Positions 48,021 to 59,168 of a stretch of 64,000 bases of DNA are shown piece after piece. This stretch comes from Halorubrum salsamenti (lineage in GTDB: Archaea; Halobacteriota; Halobacteria; Halobacteriales; Haloferacaceae): NCBI RefSeq assembly GCF_007671685.1, contig NZ_VCNL01000004.1:1-64000 (forward strand), in the 5' to 3' direction. The translations under genes were made by a program, and so were the position numbers. A model generated the notes under the pieces. The model searched no databases. It was not told the DNA's origin and saw only the letters and a program-made list of their open reading frames with translations. Numbering within the stretch: position 1 is the first letter of the stretch; each line of letters opens with the position of its first letter.

Positions 48021-48262
48021 GGCTCTATTGAAACTTCCAAAGCAATCTGTCCACGCGAATGGGACTCCCGGATACGGAAACGACCCTTTCTGTTGTAGTG
48101 TTCGGGTACAGTACGAAGTACCTCTGAATCCCATGCCGGGATAGGAGTAACGGCTGATTGGCACAGCCAGTAGCCGTCACCGAGACAGCTACAAACCGTA
48201 AACACCCCAAACCAGCGGTTCGGAGCCGTGGGAATCTTCGCTCTTCAGGGCAGAGAGGATGT
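48021..48262 (+). mobile_element. Remnant right end of a TnpB (IS1341) element
   Basis: The segment lacks a reading frame but resembles the 3' end of haloarchaeal tnpB elements: CCTCTGAATCCCATGCC near 48120, GGATAGGAGTAACGGC near 48140, and a closing hairpin AGCGGTTCGGAGCCGTGGG followed by CGCTCTTCAGGGCAGAGAGGATGTCA (split here for clarity). It ends on the stop codon of the methyltransferase gene. At its left, GGCTCTATTGAAAC (48021-48034) resembles an IS5-type end. Identification is by remembered resemblance to other elements. Confidence 0.55.
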
Positions 48263-50541
48263 CAATCCGGCCGCATTTCTTCGATAGCGTGGTGGACGAG
48301 CGTGTCGATGGTGGTGATGATCTCGTCGTGCGAGTTGCTGTCTCGGTCGGTGTCGCGGAGTGTGTCGAATGCGGCGGCGAGGTCGTGGACGGTTGCGTCG
48401 GGCAGGGCTGCAGGGTCGATGACGGGGAGTTGTTCGAGTTTCGTCAGGCTGATTTTCCACAGCGTGCCGCTGCGCATGTACCCGTACTCGCGGGAGATAT
48501 CCCGCATGACGGTGCTGTTCAGGTACGCGAGCACAGCTTTCCGCGCAGCGCCAGTCACCGCGAGTTCGACCCCGTAGAAGCTGTTCGCGGTTCGGGCGGC
48601 AGCGTCGTTCACGGTGAACCGGTGTTTATTCTGCGTGGCGTTATTAACGAGGATCGGAGCAGGGTTGTGTCCGGTCCGGCGGTACCAACACCGGTCGTCC
48701 GATTGCGTCTCAGTTCCTTGTAGGTCGCCGTCGCGGATGCGATCACGCAAGTACCTGAACAACCCCGAATGCTCGTTTCCAGCATCGCTCCCGGTGAGGG
48801 TCCCGGCGTCGTACTGCTTGACGAACGCATCGGGCGTGTCCGGGATCTCGATGCTCGGAACCGGGTCAACTATCCACCCGTCACCATCGCCATCACGCGT
48901 CACTCCCTGGTCTCTATCACGTACCACGTACCCGAGCACGTCCGATGGGCGTCGCACGAATCGAGTCAGGTGTTGCCGGCTAATCTCGTACGCTGCGACG
49001 TCCGCGTCAATCACGTGGAACGGGTCGTCCTCACCGACCGGGGGAATAGACCAAGCCGTTCCGAGGTCCGACAGCTCCAATAAGTGATCCGTGTCTACCT
49101 CGACCGGGTCGAACTGCGCTTGCCAGTTCCGGTTCGGGTCAAGGGATGACTGCGGGACCGTGTTGGTACGACCCCAGTCTCTGTCGTCAGACCCGGTACT
49201 ATCCATTACAGCTCGGACTGCGGTGAACGTCGGGTCGGTGACGGTGATGAACTGCGTGGCACTCTCCTTGTCCGGGGTGCTGTCGAACTCGACGACGGTG
49301 ATGACGGCGGTCGTGTCCGCTGCCGGGAACACTGACGCGCCGTCCGGGTCTAATCGGATGAACGATTTAATATCGGCTCGTTCGTTGAGGAATCGCTTGA
49401 CTGCAGTGCCGTACTCCGTGCCGAAGAAGCTTTCAGGCGTCAGGAATGCTGCCCGGCCACCATCTGGGAGCAGCGTCTCCGCGTGGAACATCACGTACGC
49501 GTACAGCGGCGAGAATTTGCTGATGTCGTACCCGGTTTGCTGTTCCGCTAGCTGATTCCACTGGGTTTTCTCGGGTTCTGGTATCCGGGAGTGCCCCGCG
49601 TACGGCGGGTTGCACACCACGACGTCAGGCTCGCCTGGCAGTTTCTCGCGCGTCAACTCTCGCACATCCGTGACAACCGTGGTGTGCGCTTGGTTGGTGA
49701 GCGTTAATGCTGTCTCTCCGAGGAGTGCGGCGAGCGGGCTTCGATCGACGCCGATGACTTCGCGCGGTTCGTCGAACTGGTGCCACGTTGATTGGATCGG
49801 TGTCGACAACGCGCCGGGCCCGATACCCATGTCAAGCATCGTGTCACCGTTACCAGCCGCCCACGTCTGTATCGCCCGGCCAACCCACTGCGGTGTCCTG
49901 AATTGACTGAGTACTTGCCGGGCATCGCTCGGCATGATGGCAGCGTACAGTTCACCGAGATCCGCTGATGGGGCCGTTGACACGGTGAGTTTGTGCCGCG
50001 CTGCAAGCACCGGTTCGAGCTCCGCAGCGTCAGCGAGCCACGCAATATCATCGAGTACGCACCACGCCACCGACTCACCGGCCGCCGCCGCCGCACGGAA
50101 CGCGTTCTCCGCGGTCTCCCGCGTCAACATCTCGTCCGTCTGCGCGTCGAATATCACGGCGCGCAGCAGCACAGCAAGCGCCGCCTGCCGCGCAACGAGC
50201 GTCTGCGCGGACACGCAATCCACTTCGTCAAGCCCACGCGCAGCAACCCAGTCAGCTGCGCGGCCGCACAGCGCCGCCGACGCCTTCAGCGAGAACGCAT
50301 CCTCGATTGACTCCCCAGCCGCTATGAGTTTCTCTTTCAGCTCCTCGATATCCGCACGGACACTAAGAGGCAGTGTCGGGTCGGCCGAACTGTCCTTGCT
50401 GGCCTCTGGCAGGGTGATGCTGATCGGCACGCGCGGACCAGTAACTCCGACCGGTGAATCGACCTGAGCCGGTGTTGGAGACGGGTACTGCGTTGATACA
50501 TCGGTTCTTCTGATCGCCGTCGTAGAAATGCGGTCCAGCAT
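48262..50541 (-). CDS. N6-adenine DNA methyltransferase, Eco57I-like, orphan
   Basis: The 759-residue protein has an N-terminal helical region of about 240 residues and then a methyltransferase fold: motif I LDMGIGPGALSTP near residue 238, motif IV VVCNPPYAGHSR near residue 310, and later FLTPESFFGTEYG. A target-recognition-like C-terminal half has AVLAYLNSTVMRDI. The NPPY motif predicts adenine-N6 methylation using SAM. The family includes restriction-modification fusions, but no nuclease residues are evident and no partner is adjacent. Its stop lies in an IS remnant. Confidence 0.85.
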   Translation of the reverse strand: MLDRISTTAIRRTDVSTQYPSPTPAQVDSPVGVTGPRVPISITLPEASKDSSADPTLPLSVRADIEELKEKLIAAGESIEDAFSLKASAALCGRAADWVAARGLDEVDCVSAQTLVARQAALAVLLRAVIFDAQTDEMLTRETAENAFRAAAAAGESVAWCVLDDIAWLADAAELEPVLAARHKLTVSTAPSADLGELYAAIMPSDARQVLSQFRTPQWVGRAIQTWAAGNGDTMLDMGIGPGALSTPIQSTWHQFDEPREVIGVDRSPLAALLGETALTLTNQAHTTVVTDVRELTREKLPGEPDVVVCNPPYAGHSRIPEPEKTQWNQLAEQQTGYDISKFSPLYAYVMFHAETLLPDGGRAAFLTPESFFGTEYGTAVKRFLNERADIKSFIRLDPDGASVFPAADTTAVITVVEFDSTPDKESATQFITVTDPTFTAVRAVMDSTGSDDRDWGRTNTVPQSSLDPNRNWQAQFDPVEVDTDHLLELSDLGTAWSIPPVGEDDPFHVIDADVAAYEISRQHLTRFVRRPSDVLGYVVRDRDQGVTRDGDGDGWIVDPVPSIEIPDTPDAFVKQYDAGTLTGSDAGNEHSGLFRYLRDRIRDGDLQGTETQSDDRCWYRRTGHNPAPILVNNATQNKHRFTVNDAAARTANSFYGVELAVTGAARKAVLAYLNSTVMRDISREYGYMRSGTLWKISLTKLEQLPVIDPAALPDATVHDLAAAFDTLRDTDRDSNSHDEIITTIDTLVHHAIEEMRPD

Positions 50542-51056
50542 TCGCCTAACTATGTAGATTGAACCTCACGCTTTTGAATACTTGCGTTGAGATTCTCACC
50601 GAGACACCGGAGAAACCCCGGTACAGCGGCGGCCCGACAGTAAACACGCGGTTCCGATGCGAGGACTGGGCAGCCCGGCGCAACCGAACCACACCGCGAA
50701 AAATTGTGTTCCGCAGCTCCAGTCCTAGTAGATTCTGCTGTCACCCGCGCACTTGATGATACGGATCGGCGGCCCGTCACCGGGTTCTGGAGGTTTCATA
50801 ATCCTACACTCAGGACCCGACATCCACTGCGCCCCCCGGCTGACACTCCCATTTCAATCAATGAATTCTGAATAACCTCAGTACCCCGTGAGGGTGGAAT
50901 AGTAGAGGAACGACTACAGTTAGCACGTAACGTTGTGTGTTATTTATTGACAGTATCTACTTCACTAGCCGATCACCTCTCGTGTCCTAACAGATCTTTC
51001 GCTAACATTTTCCCAGTCACCTGTAAGAATCACCCCAAGGGCACTCGTTTGTCGTA
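50542..51056. other. Gene-free gap, ~515 bp
   Basis: The only frames are short and of non-haloarchaeal composition; I see no gene. The region is richer in A+T toward 50,860-51,056. A small imperfect palindrome ACCCCGTGAGGGT lies near 50,892. It lies between the divergent-facing methyltransferase start and the PIN gene end, and may hold the methyltransferase promoter. Confidence 0.4.
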
Positions 51057-51596
51057 TCAAGACTCCATATGCTCTATCGCATCCCAGATGCTAATTATCC
51101 GAACTCGACCGTCATAGAACGTATTATGAATCACACCGGAAATTGCTCGTTCGGCGTTTCGGTCGTCAATCAAAATCCCGACAGACTCATGCGGGGTTGA
51201 CCCAAGAAGCATTACCGCCGCTGCTGGGAGCTCCGAATCTGTTTTCCGTAATTCATCTGGGGGCGTCTGCTCGAACTCTGCCAGTCGCTCGTGGACACGA
51301 TCCATCACCTCCCCAGCACGCGGCCCGTCATGAACCCGGACTCCCGGCTGTACACCATCAAGGAGAGTGATCCACTCCGTCGTATCTGCCCGGTCCACCC
51401 AGTCAATACTGATGTATCCACGTTGCTCCGAAACCTCCTCCACGACCCCGGGAGTCAGATACAACTGAACGTCCTCCGCTTTGACGTACTGAATGAAGAT
51501 CTGATAGGCGTCACTCTCAGTGCCACCGATGGTTCTGAGAAAGCTCGTATCCAGGAGAAACGCTGTTGGGAACGGCGACGGGTGTTCCTCACTCAT
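51057..51596 (-). CDS. PIN-domain protein, putative toxin
   Basis: From the ATG at 51596 this is 179 residues. PIN nuclease features are the first Asp in AFLLDTSFLRTI near residue 14, Glu in GVVEEVSEQ near residue 49, and the later acidic pair in GILIDDRNAERA near residue 145 with FYDGRVRII. PIN proteins are usually RNases of VapBC type. It overlaps by 8 bp the upstream winged-helix gene, whose product would be the antitoxin or regulator. A longer start at 51641 would overlap more deeply and lacks conserved residues. Confidence 0.75.
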   Translation of the reverse strand: MSEEHPSPFPTAFLLDTSFLRTIGGTESDAYQIFIQYVKAEDVQLYLTPGVVEEVSEQRGYISIDWVDRADTTEWITLLDGVQPGVRVHDGPRAGEVMDRVHERLAEFEQTPPDELRKTDSELPAAAVMLLGSTPHESVGILIDDRNAERAISGVIHNTFYDGRVRIISIWDAIEHMES

Positions 51597-52218
51597 CGGC
51601 GCGCTCGTACGGACCCTGCTCAATCGCTCGCTCGTGGACATCTACCTCGAACGTAACGTCGCTGAGTGTCGGGTCGAAGTCCTTCACGACGACAAGGACT
51701 CGCTCAATTGCTTGCGTGACCGCAATGGCTTCGACAGCGGGAACACCAAGGTCGTCGGCAACACCGCGACGGGTCGTCTCGCCCTGCAGGTAGTTGATCG
51801 TGCCCATCACCGCCGGTGCTAGCGCCGCCTTCCCGTGACGGTCAACGTAGAGTTCGAGGTCGTCGTCAACGCTTGTTGCGCCGTAGACGGCGATGATGGC
51901 GGGGCCGAATTCAAGAGTGATCTCATCGGTCCAGTCGCCACTCACGGGTTCGGCACGCCAGAGTGCTGAGCCGTCCTGGTGTTCGTCCAGCTCCTCAGCG
52001 ACGCCCAACTCCTCCAGCATATTGGCGTACTTGTACGCGGTACTCTTGGAGAACTCCTGACGCTCACGGGCTGCCGTGATTGTCGTTGGGGTGTTGATCA
52101 GTAGGTCCGTGTAGAACCGCGCGAGTTCTGGGGTGCCCAGTAGCTCCTGAATGGCGAAGAACCGGTGGGCAGTGTGTCCTGCGTCCGGTGGCTGAACGGA
52201 GGCGGGGGCGTTCGACAT
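51589..52218 (-). CDS. Winged-helix regulator paired with PIN gene
   Basis: The 209-residue protein has a winged helix near residues 35-75 (FYTDLLINTPTTITAARERQ, then FSKSTAYKYANMLEELGV), followed by a C-terminal domain with SVDDDLELYVDRHGKAALAP. Haloarchaeal HTH-PIN pairs of this type are common on plasmids and islands. It is probably the antitoxin and autorepressor. The start ATG overlaps the left arm of a palindrome around 52215-52241, fitting autoregulation. Confidence 0.8.
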   Translation of the reverse strand: MSNAPASVQPPDAGHTAHRFFAIQELLGTPELARFYTDLLINTPTTITAARERQEFSKSTAYKYANMLEELGVAEELDEHQDGSALWRAEPVSGDWTDEITLEFGPAIIAVYGATSVDDDLELYVDRHGKAALAPAVMGTINYLQGETTRRGVADDLGVPAVEAIAVTQAIERVLVVVKDFDPTLSDVTFEVDVHERAIEQGPYERADE

Positions 52219-52581: not shown

Positions 52582-54669
52582 ATGGGTAAGACCCCCACGA
52601 GCAATCATACTGACGCTAGTCCTCCCGAGAACGCGCCAGAGGATGGGAAATATCGAACCCCGATGGAACACGCTCCGTTCCCGCAGAAAGACGGGTACGA
52701 CCCAGGGGAACGCAAGTACGGAGCGGTGGAAAAACGAGGATTCGATATTCACGTCTCCTCACCCGTTGACGATGTGGAAGAGTTGTCGCGGCGCACTCAC
52801 CTCGCCGCTCAATTTCACGTGAATAACCGTCCGTACTGGGAGGAGAATTCTCGGTTCATTAATGACGGTGGAATGCTCTATGACAGGGCCGTCTTGGACC
52901 TATTCGAGGAGAAACTGAACTGCGAAGGCATCAACCTGTCCGATCCAGACATCGAGATTCCGTTGCCTCGGCTGAAAGCACTCTTCTTGCGGAAAGCACG
53001 CGAACAGTCCGGCACCGACTTCCATGAGTACTTGACGGATACACAGGCCGCCGGGTTGCCAACTCTTCAGAAAACCGGGTACGAGACGCGAAGTGAGGTC
53101 CCGAGCTACCAGACATTTCAGCGCACGTACAACACGCTCCACGGCGAAGATACAGACACGATTGACGGGGATGCGTTCGAGGCTGCCGTAACCCGGGCCG
53201 TCTACGCTGTTTACCGGGCAGGAATCGTGCCTCCGGATGCTGTCAAACAGGAATACGGCTTCGACGCGCTCGAACCGCCCCTCAACGAGAAATACGTCTC
53301 TCGGGACACTGAGAAAGCGGAGCTTCGGGAGTTCGTCGAACTCCTGTTCGATCTCACGACCGAGCCGCTCACTTTCGGCCGGGATTCAGAACAGAGCAAA
53401 CACGACATGCAGGCGTTTATCGGAGCGCTCGCCGCCTCTGCCCTCACCGGCGCAGGTCTGGAAGGGCTGAAAGACGTCTGTGACTGGAATCACCCGCGTG
53501 ACCGAATTCCTGGCGGTGCCTGGTTGGACAACTACGTTTCTGGGCTCCCGATCCACGCCGAGGAGATGTCCGAGTCCCAGTTCGACGGAGCCGCGGACTC
53601 GATTTCGACGATCGATGAGCAGTTCAATGCTGTCCATCGCTTGACCCTACAGTTTGCGAAAGCGCTCGGGTTCTGGTCGAAATCAGACCCGTTCAAGGTC
53701 GGTATCGATATGTTCCGCGTCGATTGGGCTGGCGAATCGTTGGACGTGACCATCGGCAGGCCTCCCAAAGCCGACAATGACGCCGTTACTGAACAGTGGA
53801 CGTTCGTTATCGCCGGCGGTGCGGAACCCGAAAATCGATTCATACTCGGTGGCCGCTGGCTGCAGACCCTACGTGACTATCCCACCGCAGTCCGAGATAT
53901 CCTGTCGAACGCTGTCCCGCCTGCTGCCATCGACACAGTCCTCATCGATTCCGAAATCGTCAGCGGGGAACTCATCGATACGCTCTGGGAGTTCGTCGGG
54001 GAGGACTGGATCATCAGTGCGCCGGATAGTGCAGTCGTGACGGGGCTGAAACGTCTCACGCCTGCGAATCACGTCGGGTACGCCCCAGAAATACGGTGGA
54101 ACACCGACTCAAAGCCGAACCTCGTGACGTATCCGACAGAGGGAAACAACCCGGATCCAGTGTTAGTTGACCCACGGGATATTGCGTTGGAAGCAATACA
54201 GGAGGAGGGAGACGACGACAAGATAGCGATCCCACTCAAACACCGTCTTGAGGATGATACCCCTCGGCCAACCTCTTTGGAACCGGATCCGGACGTTCCA
54301 CTTCTTATCGACGCAGTAGACGACTTGGAGGCAGCCCCTGGCATCGGTAGTGAAGACGGACTTGCTGCGTATTTCACTGGCCGCTCCCTCCAGAATCGTT
54401 CTGGCTCCGGGATTCGTTTTCAATACGTGCAACGGTGGAGTATCGAGAAAACTGTCGATCAATTAAAAAATGATTTTATGCCGACGATTAATAGCCGGGA
54501 CCCGAAGAAGCGCCTCTACGCGATGCACGTGGCTATCCTACTGTACAACTGGCACACGCTGATCAACCGATGCCTGTCTCCGAACGGAATTCGGCTGGAC
54601 ATCACTCACCAGGAACTCCTACAGGCGATTCAACACGTCGCATTCAACGACTCCTCAAGCGAGGAGTAA
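52582..54669 (+). CDS. Large DDE-type transposase (IS4-like)
   Basis: The 695-residue protein has the three acidic residues of a DDE transposase: Asp in VGIDMFRVDW near residue 375, Asp in TVLIDSEIVSG near residue 455 and Glu in RWSIEKTVDQLKND near residue 618. The last has the R-W-x-I-E form typical of IS4-like enzymes. The first 350 residues are an N-terminal region not seen in ordinary IS4 transposases. NDFMPTINSRDPKKRLYAMH follows the Glu. The gene appears intact. Terminal repeats were not identified. Confidence 0.75.
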   Translation: MGKTPTSNHTDASPPENAPEDGKYRTPMEHAPFPQKDGYDPGERKYGAVEKRGFDIHVSSPVDDVEELSRRTHLAAQFHVNNRPYWEENSRFINDGGMLYDRAVLDLFEEKLNCEGINLSDPDIEIPLPRLKALFLRKAREQSGTDFHEYLTDTQAAGLPTLQKTGYETRSEVPSYQTFQRTYNTLHGEDTDTIDGDAFEAAVTRAVYAVYRAGIVPPDAVKQEYGFDALEPPLNEKYVSRDTEKAELREFVELLFDLTTEPLTFGRDSEQSKHDMQAFIGALAASALTGAGLEGLKDVCDWNHPRDRIPGGAWLDNYVSGLPIHAEEMSESQFDGAADSISTIDEQFNAVHRLTLQFAKALGFWSKSDPFKVGIDMFRVDWAGESLDVTIGRPPKADNDAVTEQWTFVIAGGAEPENRFILGGRWLQTLRDYPTAVRDILSNAVPPAAIDTVLIDSEIVSGELIDTLWEFVGEDWIISAPDSAVVTGLKRLTPANHVGYAPEIRWNTDSKPNLVTYPTEGNNPDPVLVDPRDIALEAIQEEGDDDKIAIPLKHRLEDDTPRPTSLEPDPDVPLLIDAVDDLEAAPGIGSEDGLAAYFTGRSLQNRSGSGIRFQYVQRWSIEKTVDQLKNDFMPTINSRDPKKRLYAMHVAILLYNWHTLINRCLSPNGIRLDITHQELLQAIQHVAFNDSSSEE

Positions 54670-55406: not shown

Positions 55407-55535
55407 GTACTCATCAAGAGTTGTCGCTTCAGTGTGGATACGGTACAGGAGACGCCGTTGAGTGTGCGGGAGCGCCGTGGTGGGGAGACGTCGGGTGAGG
55501 ACGAGGGCGAGTCGGGTGCGGGTGATGGGGCGTGA
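55407..55535 (+). pseudogene. C-terminal remnant of a lost upstream gene of the RAMP operon
   Basis: An open frame of 42 codons without a start runs into the next gene. It ends with VQETPLSVRERRGGETSGED and an acidic Gly/Ser tail, the usual look of a haloarchaeal protein end. Its TGA (55533-55535) overlaps the GTG start at 55532 in the GTGA pattern used throughout this operon. Upstream is a stop and the divergent winged-helix gene. I infer that the body of a gene, possibly the main Cas7-like subunit, was removed. Confidence 0.5.
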
Positions 55536-56398
55536 CGGGGTCGGAGTCCGGTCTGGAGCCCGGTGGTGATGGTGAACCAGGCGCGTTGGTGGCGGCGTTC
55601 CGGCACGACGTACACAAGCTTCGGGGGAAGCAGCACGCGTCGGCTGATCAGGAGGTGTGCGGGGTGCGGGTGAATCAGTCGGTGCCGTGCGGTGCGGATG
55701 GGGATGCGGCGGTGTTGAGTCGCCCGTCGGGTGAGCCGGAGGAAACGGTGGCGAATCACGTGTCGCCGGCACGGCTCTCACTCGTGACGGGGGCGACGGT
55801 CGCGGATCCCGTGGACGTGCCGGCCTCAGTGGCGGCTGTGCGTGGGCTGGTCAGGCCGGGGTGTTCGGACCCGGCGCGACTCCACGCTGAGTGGTTGACG
55901 AGTGATGTGGCGGCGCGGTTCAACGAGTCGGTGTACGTCCCGTACACGTCGTTGAAGTTCCACGTGTTGCTGGTGGCGGCGCTGCTCGATAATTACCGAT
56001 CCGGGTACGCGTTCGAGGATCTTTGTCTTGTGGCGGAGTGCCCGGCGCGCGGCCCGCCGACTGGCGACGGCGATGATGGTCGTGTGGCGGCGGCGCTTGA
56101 CGCTGAAGTGGTGGTGCCGTGCCGGACGGTGTTGTGGACGTCTGAACTGGCGGTCCGCGTGACGGGTGACGCGCCTTCGACGGGGGCGGTGGCGTCGCTT
56201 GGGGCGGGGCCGGCGCGGTCGTTTGCGGATACGTGGTCGCGGTTGTCGGCGCAGCCGCTGGATGTGGAGCGGAAGTGGCTGCGCGTGGTGGATGCGCAGT
56301 TGCGTCGCATCCGGTCGTTTTCGACGGCGCTGCAGTACGTGGAGGATGTCGTGGAGAGGGATGTGGGTGCTGCGGTGCGTGGCGGGGTGGGGAGGTGA
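55532..56398 (+). CDS. Uncharacterised protein of HRAMP-like operon
   Basis: The 288-residue protein is Gly/Val/Arg-rich and not of a family I can name. Possible secondary structure: a variable N-terminus, a strand-rich middle (ARLSLVTGATVADPVDVPAS), a helix FHVLLVAALLDNYRSGYAFE near residue 150, strands EVVVPCRTVLWTSELAVRVT, and a helical end with FSTALQYVEDVVERDVG. It may be the conserved unknown subunit reported with diverged Cas5 and Cas7 proteins. The GTG start overlaps the previous stop. Codon third positions are strongly G/C, supporting translation. Confidence 0.6.
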   Translation: MTGSESGLEPGGDGEPGALVAAFRHDVHKLRGKQHASADQEVCGVRVNQSVPCGADGDAAVLSRPSGEPEETVANHVSPARLSLVTGATVADPVDVPASVAAVRGLVRPGCSDPARLHAEWLTSDVAARFNESVYVPYTSLKFHVLLVAALLDNYRSGYAFEDLCLVAECPARGPPTGDGDDGRVAAALDAEVVVPCRTVLWTSELAVRVTGDAPSTGAVASLGAGPARSFADTWSRLSAQPLDVERKWLRVVDAQLRRIRSFSTALQYVEDVVERDVGAAVRGGVGR

Positions 56399-56434
56399 TC
56401 CGGGTGGGCGGGCGGGGTCGGCGCGGCGGACCGG

Positions 56435-56665
56435 TTGTGGGGAGGCGACGTGGTCGTGGGTCGGGGCTGCGGGTTGTGGTGGGCTCGCAGCCGCGACGGG
56501 TGCGTGCCGCGGGTCGCGGGCTTGGTGCCGGGTTGTTCGTGGTGGGACGACGCGGGACCGGTTCGCGCCTCGGAAATCGGTGGTGCGGGTCGCAGCTGGG
56601 AGTGCCGTTTCGACCCTGCCACCGAGACGTGGGAACACTGGAGGCGAGGTGTGCGGATCGCGTGA
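56435..56665 (+). CDS. Small Trp/Cys-rich protein, possibly gene fragment
   Basis: This frame (from TTG 56435, GTG 56450 or 56456) gives up to 76 residues ending FDPATETWEHWRRGVRIA. It has three cysteines and many Trp. It is in the same frame as the upstream gene after one stop codon, and codon third positions are mostly G/C, so it could be a separate small gene or the far end of the upstream protein cut by a stop. An alternative frame (56395-56820) is coupled to both neighbours by GTGA overlaps but has the composition of a shadow. Confidence 0.35.
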   Translation: MWGGDVVVGRGCGLWWARSRDGCVPRVAGLVPGCSWWDDAGPVRASEIGGAGRSWECRFDPATETWEHWRRGVRIA

Positions 56666-56751
56666 CGGGTCGGCGAAGAACACTGGAAACAGGGTGTGTG
56701 GATCACGGGGAGAGTACGTCGTGGAGAACACTGGAAACGGGGTGTGCGGTA
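56633..56751 (+). repeat. Three ~27-bp direct repeats inside the operon
   Basis: Copies starting at 56633, 56678 and 56726 read GAACACTGGA, then five variable bases, then GGTGTG(C/T)GG. They are 45 and 48 bases apart. Each translates in one shared frame as EHW(K/R)(R/Q)GV, the first being the C-terminal end of the small frame above. They may be tandem duplications of a gene end, or short repeat-spacer-like units. Confidence 0.7.
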
Positions 56752-56816
56752 CGGGGTGCTGATAGTGTGGCGTGTGAACGTGTGATGGCCACCAGTGGAA
56801 GCGCGGGGGTGGGAGC

Positions 56817-57758
56817 GTGACGCGCATCCAGCAGGTGTTGTTCGAGTTGGAAGCGCCGTACACGGGGCACCCGTACTTCGTAAGCGGTAACGCGTTGTTC
56901 AACGCGGTCGCGCCGCACGTCGATGACGAGACGCGGCGGGAGTTGCGAGTGAGTCACGGGGTGTTCGTGCCGGAAGAGTACGGTGAGTACCCAGCCGCGC
57001 ATTCGATGCCCGGGTACGCGGGGAAGCTCGGCGGGTCGCTCCCCGACGTGGACGCGTACGAGGATCTGTTCCTGTACCGTGACGCGGCGCAGCGATGGTT
57101 GCTGGACTCCAGGCCACGAGACGCGCATAACACGCACGACGTCCAGACGCACGGTGGGCGCGTCGCGTACGCTGACACGTCCTGGTTCGGGCGGCCCGAG
57201 ACGATGCGGAACACCCGGCGGGCCGTGTCGTGGTACCTCCACTGCTACGTGTCCGTGGACGGCGTCGACGACACGATCCCGCTATCAGAGGACGTCCTCG
57301 ACGGGATCCAAGTCGGTGCCGCGCGGAACTACGGGTTCGGTGAAGTGTCGGTCGCTGATACGCGAGTCGTGGAGGTAGCGGAACTCGATTACTCTCGCCT
57401 CGAAGCAGCCAAGCAGGACGGGGAGCCATGCCAGGTTGAGTTACTGACGCCGTTCGTCACGGCTTCGGAGTACCCGGGCGCGGATGACCAGGACGTTCCG
57501 TGGTGGTGGGGCGTTACAGATGCCGAGGTGCGGCGGCGAGAAACCCGTGTCGTGGACGACGGTCACGTGTACGTGGTGAACACGATCGACCACGGGCAGG
57601 TCGTCCCGTACACCAGCTCGGACCCGGTGCGAACGGCGATGAACGGTGTGCTCAGGGTTGGGACGCATTCGAAGTACGGGTTCGGTGAGTTCCGCGTCAG
57701 ACCGGCTGGTGAGGGGCGCGTCCCGGGGCGGGCAGAAACGCGGGGTGGTGAGGCGTGA
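56817..57758 (+). CDS. RAMP-superfamily protein (Cas5/Cas7-like)
   Basis: The 313-residue protein shows two glycine-rich loops typical of RAMP proteins: GIQVGAARNYGFGEVSV near residues 163-179 and GVLRVGTHSKYGFGEFRV near 277-294. Each follows a strand-helix pattern consistent with two ferredoxin-like folds. The N-terminus (MTRIQQVLFELEAPYTGHPY, then FVSGNALFNAV) is also RAMP-like. Such proteins bind guide RNA in class 1 CRISPR effectors. It is coupled on both sides by GTGA overlaps, the downstream partner being an exonuclease. Whether it is nearer Cas5, Cas6 or Cas7 needs profile comparison. Confidence 0.7.
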   Translation: MTRIQQVLFELEAPYTGHPYFVSGNALFNAVAPHVDDETRRELRVSHGVFVPEEYGEYPAAHSMPGYAGKLGGSLPDVDAYEDLFLYRDAAQRWLLDSRPRDAHNTHDVQTHGGRVAYADTSWFGRPETMRNTRRAVSWYLHCYVSVDGVDDTIPLSEDVLDGIQVGAARNYGFGEVSVADTRVVEVAELDYSRLEAAKQDGEPCQVELLTPFVTASEYPGADDQDVPWWWGVTDAEVRRRETRVVDDGHVYVVNTIDHGQVVPYTSSDPVRTAMNGVLRVGTHSKYGFGEFRVRPAGEGRVPGRAETRGGEA

Positions 57759-58411
57759 CGTTGCGGCAAGTAGCGTTCGACATCGAGACGACCGGGTTCA
57801 ACGCGGATGACGTCGTCACAGTAGTCGGGTTCGCGGTGCCGCTCGGAGTCCGCGTGTTCGTGAACACAGGCGGCCGCGCTGCTCCTGACATCGGTGAAGT
57901 CGGCGGGGACGTGGTCGTGAAGGTGACGACGCACTCCTCGGAACCCGGGTTGCTGACGGCCGTCGCCGGGTTCGTTGAGGAGCGGTTCCGGGACGCGGAC
58001 GTGTTGCTCGTGGCGTACAACGGGGAGCGGTGGCGCGGCGGGTTCGACCTTCCGTTCCTCCGCACGCGGTTCGCGCGCCTCGACATCGCGTGGCCGTTCA
58101 CCGACGTGCCGTACGCGGACGTCATGCCGCTCGTCACGAAGCGGTTCAACACGACCGTTGACGGTGACGAGCACGGCGACCTCGACACCGCGTACGACGT
58201 GCTGTGCGACGGGACGTACGGTGAGCTCGACCCGTTCACGGAGAGTGCGGAAGCAGTGACAGCGTTCGAGAACGAGGAGTTCGCGGCGCTCGCCGCGCAC
58301 AACGTCGCGGACGTGCTGCGAACACGTGAGCTCGGGCGGCTCGCGGAACAGTACTGCTCGAAATCAGAGTTCAACGTGAAATCGCTAACACCGACACGGA
58401 GCACCCAATGA
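57755..58411 (+). CDS. DEDD-type 3'-5' exonuclease (DnaQ/RNase H-like fold)
   Basis: The 218-residue protein has the exonuclease motifs: Exo I VAFDIETTGF (Asp9 and Glu11), Exo II around YNGERWRGGFDLPFLRTRF near residue 90, and Exo III AHNVADVLRTRELGRL near residue 188. His-x3-Asp stands where the final catalytic pair should be, as in RNase-H-like YprB-type nucleases. It should trim single-stranded DNA or RNA. Its GTG start overlaps the RAMP gene stop, suggesting that it supplies cleavage for the complex. Confidence 0.8.
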   Translation: MTLRQVAFDIETTGFNADDVVTVVGFAVPLGVRVFVNTGGRAAPDIGEVGGDVVVKVTTHSSEPGLLTAVAGFVEERFRDADVLLVAYNGERWRGGFDLPFLRTRFARLDIAWPFTDVPYADVMPLVTKRFNTTVDGDEHGDLDTAYDVLCDGTYGELDPFTESAEAVTAFENEEFAALAAHNVADVLRTRELGRLAEQYCSKSEFNVKSLTPTRSTQ

Positions 58412-58452
58412 CACGACAATCGACGCGACGCTCGGCAGGTGATGGACAGTGA
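58408..58452 (+). CDS. 14-codon coupling mini-frame
   Basis: A tiny frame (MTRQSTRRSAGDGQ) starts with an ATG that overlaps the exonuclease stop (ATGA), and ends with a TGA that overlaps the GTG of the nuclease gene (GTGA). The overlaps at both ends suggest it lets ribosomes reinitiate across the gap; a functional peptide is less likely. It is basic. Confidence 0.35.
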   Translation: MTRQSTRRSAGDGQ

Positions 58453-59168
58453 GTACTGACGACTTCCCCGATGACGTTGATGGGTTCCGAACGGCGGGGA
58501 AAGAGTCGTGGGAGCACTTGTGGCCGAAATTAGAGTTGGAGCGGCGTCGCCGCACACAAACCGAGCCGTTCTTCCACGGTGAGTATCGGTTCGAGAGGAA
58601 GGTCGCTGACCGCGTCCCGGACTGTGCGGTCATCGGAGGTGACGTGAACCGGTGGATTGAGTTTGTCGCCGGGTCCGACCAACCGTACCGGAAGAAGACA
58701 CGGGAAGCGCTGCGCTTGGGGTTCGTCATCCACTGGGTGTTTCACACTGACCACGCCGAGCAGAAAGGGACGGCGCGTGACGCGTTAACCCCGGAGCTCC
58801 ACGGCCCGTTCTCATTCGGAGAGTACAACCCGGACACAGGCACGTTGGATGTCGGTGACCCGGTGACGTTCAAGAATTTCAGGTTCCCGGTTGAATCAAT
58901 GGAAGAGTTCGAACCGCGGGAACTCCTCGGGTATCGACGCGGCATGGCCCGGATCGACCGGGTTGACTACGGGTACGATCTCGGCATGTTCGCCGTTGCC
59001 GGCGTCCAGCGTCGCATATTGGCGAACGCGTACGGGACGGAGTTCTGCGCAGTGGCACCAGGTCAATCAATTGCCGATGCGACGTGGGGGTTTCCGACGC
59101 GAGACGGGCTTGAACGACTCATCGAAACGAACAACCTCACACGACTCGGACCGGTACGGCGAGACTGA
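58449..59168 (+). CDS. CoiA-like PD-(D/E)XK nuclease
   Basis: The 239-residue protein has a nuclease-like core near residues 40-105: EYRFERKVADRVPDCAVIG with the Pro-Asp, RWIEFVAGSDQPYRKKT with Glu and Lys, and ALRLGFVIHWVFHTDHAEQ. The order P-D, E-x-V, S-x-x-P-Y-R-x-K and W-V-F-H resembles competence-type CoiA nucleases. The C-terminal half (PRELLGYRRGMARIDRVDYG) is unfamiliar. As last gene of the operon it gives a second, distinct nuclease. GC remains high up to its stop, after which IS-remnant sequence begins. Confidence 0.65.
   Translation: MSTDDFPDDVDGFRTAGKESWEHLWPKLELERRRRTQTEPFFHGEYRFERKVADRVPDCAVIGGDVNRWIEFVAGSDQPYRKKTREALRLGFVIHWVFHTDHAEQKGTARDALTPELHGPFSFGEYNPDTGTLDVGDPVTFKNFRFPVESMEEFEPRELLGYRRGMARIDRVDYGYDLGMFAVAGVQRRILANAYGTEFCAVAPGQSIADATWGFPTRDGLERLIETNNLTRLGPVRRD

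Follow-up and report, generated by a model that had tools for sequence, protein, structure and literature searches.

The haloarchaeal systems known as HRAMP are treated as array-less CRISPR derivatives in two reviews (PMC8730458 and PMC12669027), whose passages on HRAMP make no mention of repeats or structured RNA, a statement that covers those review passages. Here we analyse a probable HRAMP operon in positions 1 to 64,000 of Halorubrum salsamenti contig NZ_VCNL01000004.1 (assembly GCF_007671685.1), a stretch of 64,000 nucleotides (nt) that we call the window. Like HRAMP, the operon is haloarchaeal and encodes a diverged Cas5-like RAMP protein and nucleases, with neither cas1 nor a CRISPR array, but it differs in holding a repeated hairpin segment, of which those review passages say nothing. 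The segment, as predicted from its sequence, forms several small hairpins in the operon mRNA and lies within an open reading frame (ORF), here called X, that is kept open between the first gene and the Cas5-like gene with no purifying selection on its amino acids. To our knowledge, HRAMP has kept RNA-binding Cas proteins with no RNA known to accompany them, and its mechanism has been a long-standing puzzle; a hairpin segment exclusive to HRAMP operons would be a concrete candidate for that RNA.

Three other described systems resemble parts of this locus. Class 1 CRISPR arrays and the handles of their CRISPR RNAs (crRNAs) share with the window short repeats with variable intervals beside a Cas5/Cmr3-like gene and a UUGAAAC-like stretch, but the window intervals are irregular, inherited, locally duplicated and overlapped by an ORF, and the searches described below found no adaptation genes and no targets. 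In CsrA/RsmE leaders and decoy RNAs, several small hairpins carry a common loop motif and one covers the ribosome-binding region. By analogy, the window segment has several small hairpins with a common loop motif and one near a gene start, although it comes from a different organism, uses a different motif, lies inside an operon and a translated bridge ORF, and implies no CsrA-type protein. Finally, neighbouring haloarchaeal genes are coupled by termination–reinitiation at gene overlaps (PMC6728339 and PMC10666635), and in Haloferax gene pairs this coupling is nearly abolished at a gap of about 20 nt (PMC10666635). Both ends of X form 4-nt stop/start overlaps like those described; X differs in that its apparent purpose is to accommodate RNA, not to specify a constrained protein.

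The operon comprises the following reading frames:
55532..56398, + strand: g1, 288 amino acids, the conserved first operon gene (ORF; precedes the Cas5-like gene at almost every related locus)
56395..56820, + strand: bridge ORF X of 141 codons, from a GTG start to a TGA stop, carrying the predicted hairpins (open frame; codon-position substitutions flat)
56817..57758, + strand: Cas5-like RAMP protein (Cmr3-like), 313 amino acids (PADLOC Cmr3, E=2.1e-5)
57755..58411, + strand: DEDDh-type exonuclease or RNase H-like protein (Pfam PF13482, E=1.7e-5; PADLOC DEDDh, E=4.6e-4)
58449..59168, + strand: gene 4, 239 amino acids, putative PD-(D/E)xK-nuclease-like protein (IEF...SDQPYRxK, by eye; ORF, present in several related operons)

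In the Cas5-like family, 18 of 19 members matched PADLOC Cmr3, at best with E=1.1e-6 and, for the window protein, with 2.1e-5; Cmr3 is the Cas5 subunit of type III-B systems. A fold search with the Cas5-like model returned weak matches to Cas6 and III-B proteins (E at best 0.007, TM about 0.3), and no viral homologues of the protein were found. A sample of 392 genomes of the order yielded relatives in 106 of them, and all 37 of the named loci that carry one were haloarchaeal. The window's g1 protein had no Pfam, NCBIfam or PADLOC match, and its AlphaFold2 model (predicted local distance difference test 56) was too poor for fold comparison; by position, g1 fits a candidate Cas7-like gene of HRAMP. 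We assign the operon to HRAMP as probable because it joins a Cmr3-like gene to a DEDDh exonuclease, has haloarchaeal relatives, and comes from a genome in which neither Cas1 nor Cas6 gave a match anywhere. Of the features that define HRAMP, those found here are a diverged Cas5-type RAMP protein, associated nucleases, a haloarchaeal host, and no CRISPR array or adaptation genes alongside; for a diverged Cas7 homologue, g1 is a candidate by position.

X starts in a 4-nt GTGA overlap with the stop of g1 and stops in another with the GTG start of the cas5-like gene. In the examined loci with a gap of more than 100 nt, one frame runs uninterrupted from where g1 ends as far as a stop codon overlapping or abutting the start of the Cas5-like gene; across 24 non-redundant loci this frame contained 0 stops in 3,209 codons, compared with 82 and 142 for the remaining two, and insertions and deletions were mostly multiples of 3. 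Substitutions in X were nonetheless flat across codon positions in twelve pairs of relatives, with 116, 131 and 121 changes at positions 1, 2 and 3 when six pairs were summed, compared with 111, 68 and 373 in the Cas5-like gene. The ratio of non-synonymous to synonymous divergence (dN/dS) was about 0.5–1.2 in well-resolved pairs, divergence in X was lower than the dS of neighbouring genes in most pairs, and X had no protein family match. Since all six frames share one three-base grid, the flat positions speak against protein-level constraint in any frame on either strand. These data demonstrate that the X frame is kept open while its amino-acid sequence is free of purifying selection.

Within the 418-nt gap between g1 (55532-56398) and the Cas5-like gene (56817-57758), the window contains three direct repeats, termed type A, and a degenerate fourth copy:
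56633..56656, + strand: type A repeat copy 1 (repeat comparison)
56678..56701, + strand: type A repeat copy 2 (repeat comparison; exact-pattern search)
56726..56749, + strand: type A repeat copy 3 (repeat comparison; exact-pattern search)
56790..56816, + strand: degenerate repeat CACCAGTGGAAGCGCGGGGGTGGGAGC, directly 5' of the cas5-like start (counterpart in many loci without X)

These repeats were first noticed in an original prediction made from the DNA letters, which as a whole is partly supported. The copies indeed start at 56633, 56678 and 56726 (45 and 48 nt from start to start), show 80% identity to the reference copy over the 30 nt compared, and share the core CACTGGAAACRGGGTGTG in copies 2 and 3; the proposal that they lie within an operon of this type is borne out as probable, and the repeats are genuine. 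The prediction had also read all copies in one frame as EHW(K/R)xGV and taken them for duplicated gene ends. The copies are in phase, but that frame is not a coding frame: it is broken by a TGA at 56663-56665 and another after copy 3, and in several homologous copies by an in-frame TAG. The frame that is actually open through the window repeats is 56395-56820. Duplicated gene ends in the EHW frame are ruled out by these stops.

To place the repeat among relatives, we used 71 de-duplicated loci related by the Cas5-like gene, which are not independent of one another. The type A core RRCACTKGAAACRGGGTGTGTG was present in 65 copies at 22 of the 71 loci, with 2–5 copies each and spanning many haloarchaeal genera, and at all 22 it was located in the gap that precedes the Cas5/Cmr3-like gene. 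Conservation extends over about 22 nt, with an 18-nt core, and the flanks are random. When the core was searched with up to 3 mismatches, every match within 400 nt of the Cas5-like gene was in the sense orientation; the few distant matches each had 3 mismatches and were no commoner than in shuffled sequence. The same search of 1.16 Mb of shuffled sequence from these loci gave 3 matches, compared with more than 20 loci in the real sequence. The exact pattern occurred 23 times in 8 of 116 genomes, every time adjoining an HRAMP Cas5-like gene, whereas a reversed control pattern had 0 matches in the 116 genomes. The type A repeat is therefore far from chance and specific to HRAMP. The motif was also seen in 5 viral contigs, which we take as chance. 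A dispersed or mobile repeat is ruled out, as exact matches in the 116 genomes fell only at HRAMP loci. The degenerate counterpart near the cas5-like start persists in many loci, including loci without X.

The core is read as LETGC in Halorubrum, Halovenus and relatives, as TGNGVC in most other lineages, and as HWKQGV in the last copy of three loci (L075, L076 of Haloarcula japonica, and L087), in the same ORF as TGNGVC copies. One repeat is thus read in three frames, so it is the nucleotides and not the peptide that are conserved. The variant TTGAAAC would create a TGA in the TGNGVC frame, and 0 of the 35 copies read in that frame have it, whereas 12 of the 24 read as LETGC do (the copies are not independent); the frame also limits the variants that can occur. 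The segment thus meets two constraints jointly, one on its nucleotide motif and the other on keeping the frame open.

A second class of element, type B, consists of predicted hairpins with a GUGGUG hexaloop, two of which lie upstream of the repeats in the window:
56465..56492, + strand: type B hairpin 1, GGCUGCGGGUU-GUGGUG-GGCUCGCAGCC, 11-bp stem (GTGGTG hairpin scan)
56532..56551, + strand: type B hairpin 2, GUUGUUC-GUGGUG-GGACGAC, 7-bp stem (GTGGTG hairpin scan)

Across the loci, 21 of 90 GTGGTG sites in X form such hairpins, with stems of 7–13 bp, whereas shuffled sequence gave 0.16 on average and never more than 4, and outside X 2 of 330 sites had a stem of at least 6 bp; the hairpins lie nearly all inside the gap. 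Their stems vary by position and species and are still paired, mostly with G–U pairs, and in relatives of hairpin 2 the pairing is kept while the bases have changed (GUCGUUC/GAACGAC and GUUGUCC/GGACGAC). The GUGGUG hairpins thus show the hallmark of structured RNA, conserved pairing over changed sequence. Few of the stems survive when G–U pairs are disallowed, so they can work only in sense-strand RNA, and a scan of 1.2 Mb of reverse strand found no GTGGTG-loop hairpin. The type A repeat can itself be folded as a hairpin, ACACU-KGAAACRG-GGUGU, and GAAACR was the next most frequent hairpin loop after GUGGUG. Judged against our own column-shuffled alignments, which are the reference for covariation and consensus folding throughout, X folded better than the controls, with z of -5.3 in Halorubrum and -3.4 to -6.1 in Halovenus and a weaker effect in other groups. 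Single X segments were only weakly better than shuffles in minimum free energy (z 0.7 to -2.1), and the signal lies in conserved loops and pairing. Rfam covariance models gave no match up to E=5, and in that search the segment fell into no known RNA family. At the level of predicted structure, these results show that the mRNA of this probable HRAMP operon carries a multi-hairpin RNA segment between g1 and the Cas5/Cmr3-like gene.

Our favoured model, to which we give an even chance, is that this multi-hairpin segment sits in a translational bridge ORF and that its hairpins are candidate binding sites for the operon's own RNA-binding protein. Because haloarchaeal reinitiation needs overlapping genes, an RNA element hundreds of nt long would need a bridging frame; X would be that bridge, an open frame that keeps g1 and cas5 translation coupled across the RNA element, and the coupling requirement would thus explain X without a protein function. 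The type A and type B hairpins would be bound by the Cas5/Cmr3-like RAMP protein, which is the natural and most likely candidate because the element is restricted to the Cas5-like operon and has a degenerate copy directly 5' of the cas5 start. That copy and those upstream would together serve as an operator with several sites, through which cas5 translation is adjusted whenever the protein or its complex is free, in a mode analogous to the multi-hairpin leaders of CsrA/RsmE. More broadly, and with somewhat less confidence than in the model itself, HRAMP may not be RNA-less: the multi-hairpin RNA of the operon mRNA, in an ORF without protein function, would be the ligand of the Cas5-like protein, whether as guide, scaffold or regulator.

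Several observations weigh against this model. Binding by the Cas5-like protein is proposed from position and family alone. The type A stem hardly varies and showed no covariation, and in six copies one pair is broken with no compensating change. The reverse strand also folds better than its column-shuffled control, although less so than the sense strand. Type B hairpins were found only in Halorubrum and in Halovenus/Salinibaculum-like lineages; several lineages with type A alone yielded none. Lastly, X is missing from several loci of the same clade and from an entire second clade, and hence not every HRAMP requires the element.

A related possibility is that the HRAMP complex takes the segment as its RNA partner: the mRNA would be processed in cis to hairpin RNAs that replace crRNA and assemble with the Cas5-like and other HRAMP proteins, in the form of a handle-like UKGAAAC followed by GGGUGUG. 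RAMP proteins bind RNA and Cmr3/Cas5 binds the 5' handle of crRNA, the variants CUUGAAAC and GUUGAAAC resemble the common AUUGAAAC handle, the motif is confined to HRAMP loci and present in both HRAMP operons of the source genome, and a multi-hairpin RNA is predicted. We nevertheless regard it as rather unlikely, given that the segment is missing from many HRAMP operons, that the intervening lengths are not guide-like, that no viral or plasmid targets were found, and that no Cas6 was detected in the genome. Translational autoregulation is favoured over a guide or scaffold because many HRAMP operons manage without X; the two roles are compatible with each other and both fit the data. A minimal CRISPR array, its repeats separated by acquired spacers, would account for a repeat with variable intervals in a CRISPR-derived operon, and the original prediction had raised a very short repeat-spacer array from the repeat and intervening lengths; this reading is strongly disfavoured. 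The intervals between type A copies range from about 6 to more than 100 nt and start-to-start spacings from 24 to 144 nt, 39 of 43 being divisible by 3 and the other 4 representing one homologous 142-nt interval. The intervals are homologous across species: of the 57 positions in the window's two intervals, 56 agree with the nearest relative, whereas dS in cas5 is 0.57. At one locus with five copies (L058, Halorubrum californiense) an interval recurs inside the array, as expected of a 93-nt duplication, and by this pattern type A copies multiply by local duplication. The suggested comparison of intervening stretches with viruses and plasmids gave no match: BLAST of the segment returned nothing in phages and only weak, unrelated matches in plasmids, and none of four 21-nt stretches taken from the intervals was matched exactly in viral contigs. 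Neither a uniform repeat and spacer length nor unique spacers acquired from mobile elements were found. On the strength of irregular spacing, intervals homologous between species, no match to Cas1 or Cas6 in the genome and no targets found, we conclude from these comparisons that the window repeats are not a CRISPR array.

Two further readings concern protein and DNA. If X encoded an ordinary fast-evolving small protein with repeats internal to it, the open frame, the start and stop overlaps and the triplet indels would follow directly, but the flat substitutions, the dN/dS, the reading of one DNA repeat in three frames and the lack of a family match make this improbable. Slightly less probable still is a reading of the repeats as sites in double-stranded DNA, either for a transcription regulator or for an internal cas5 promoter; such sites would account for a sequence motif that varies little in structure and for partly palindromic ends (CAC...GTG), yet the repeats in the gap are all in sense orientation, the adjoining hairpins depend on G–U pairing, and the whole lies inside a coupled ORF. 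The favoured translational-bridge model would make X an example of how an RNA element can hide in a translationally coupled operon, within an 'empty' reading frame, which would be overlooked in annotation or labelled as protein.

Related loci provided additional observations. The same genome has a second, diverged HRAMP operon (L003, contig 12, about 315.8-319 kb; also L002), in which L003 shares the gap, the bridge ORF, GUGGUG hairpins and two type A copies. Two decayed HRAMP operons (L043 and L044) have lost the Cas5-like gene and kept the repeat segment and the fourth gene. In a second Cas5-like clade (L115-L130, about 51% identical), the gene comes immediately after g1, and both the gap and the repeat are absent. 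The bridge ORF in a second Halorubrum group (L081, L085, L086, L088, L093, L082 and L101) spans 105-200 codons and lacks the GAAAC repeat; it contains another, larger repeated unit (IWSCGES...GRT...), its codon-position substitutions are flat too, and no single common hairpin loop was found in the group (L081, L085 and L088 among others). The bridge ORF of Halohasta litorea (L089) is AT-richer, with a long Asp/Ser-rich repeat unlike all other loci.

Upstream of the operon, the window region 48262-52218 on the - strand, a divergent neighbourhood, encodes a putative N6-adenine DNA methylase (NPPY, by eye), a small protein and a helix-turn-helix-like protein, and resembles a further defence locus. 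Between the two, 52582-54669 encodes a 695-amino-acid protein whose C terminus has a weak match to an ISH3-family transposase (NCBIfam, 22 bits, below the cut-off).
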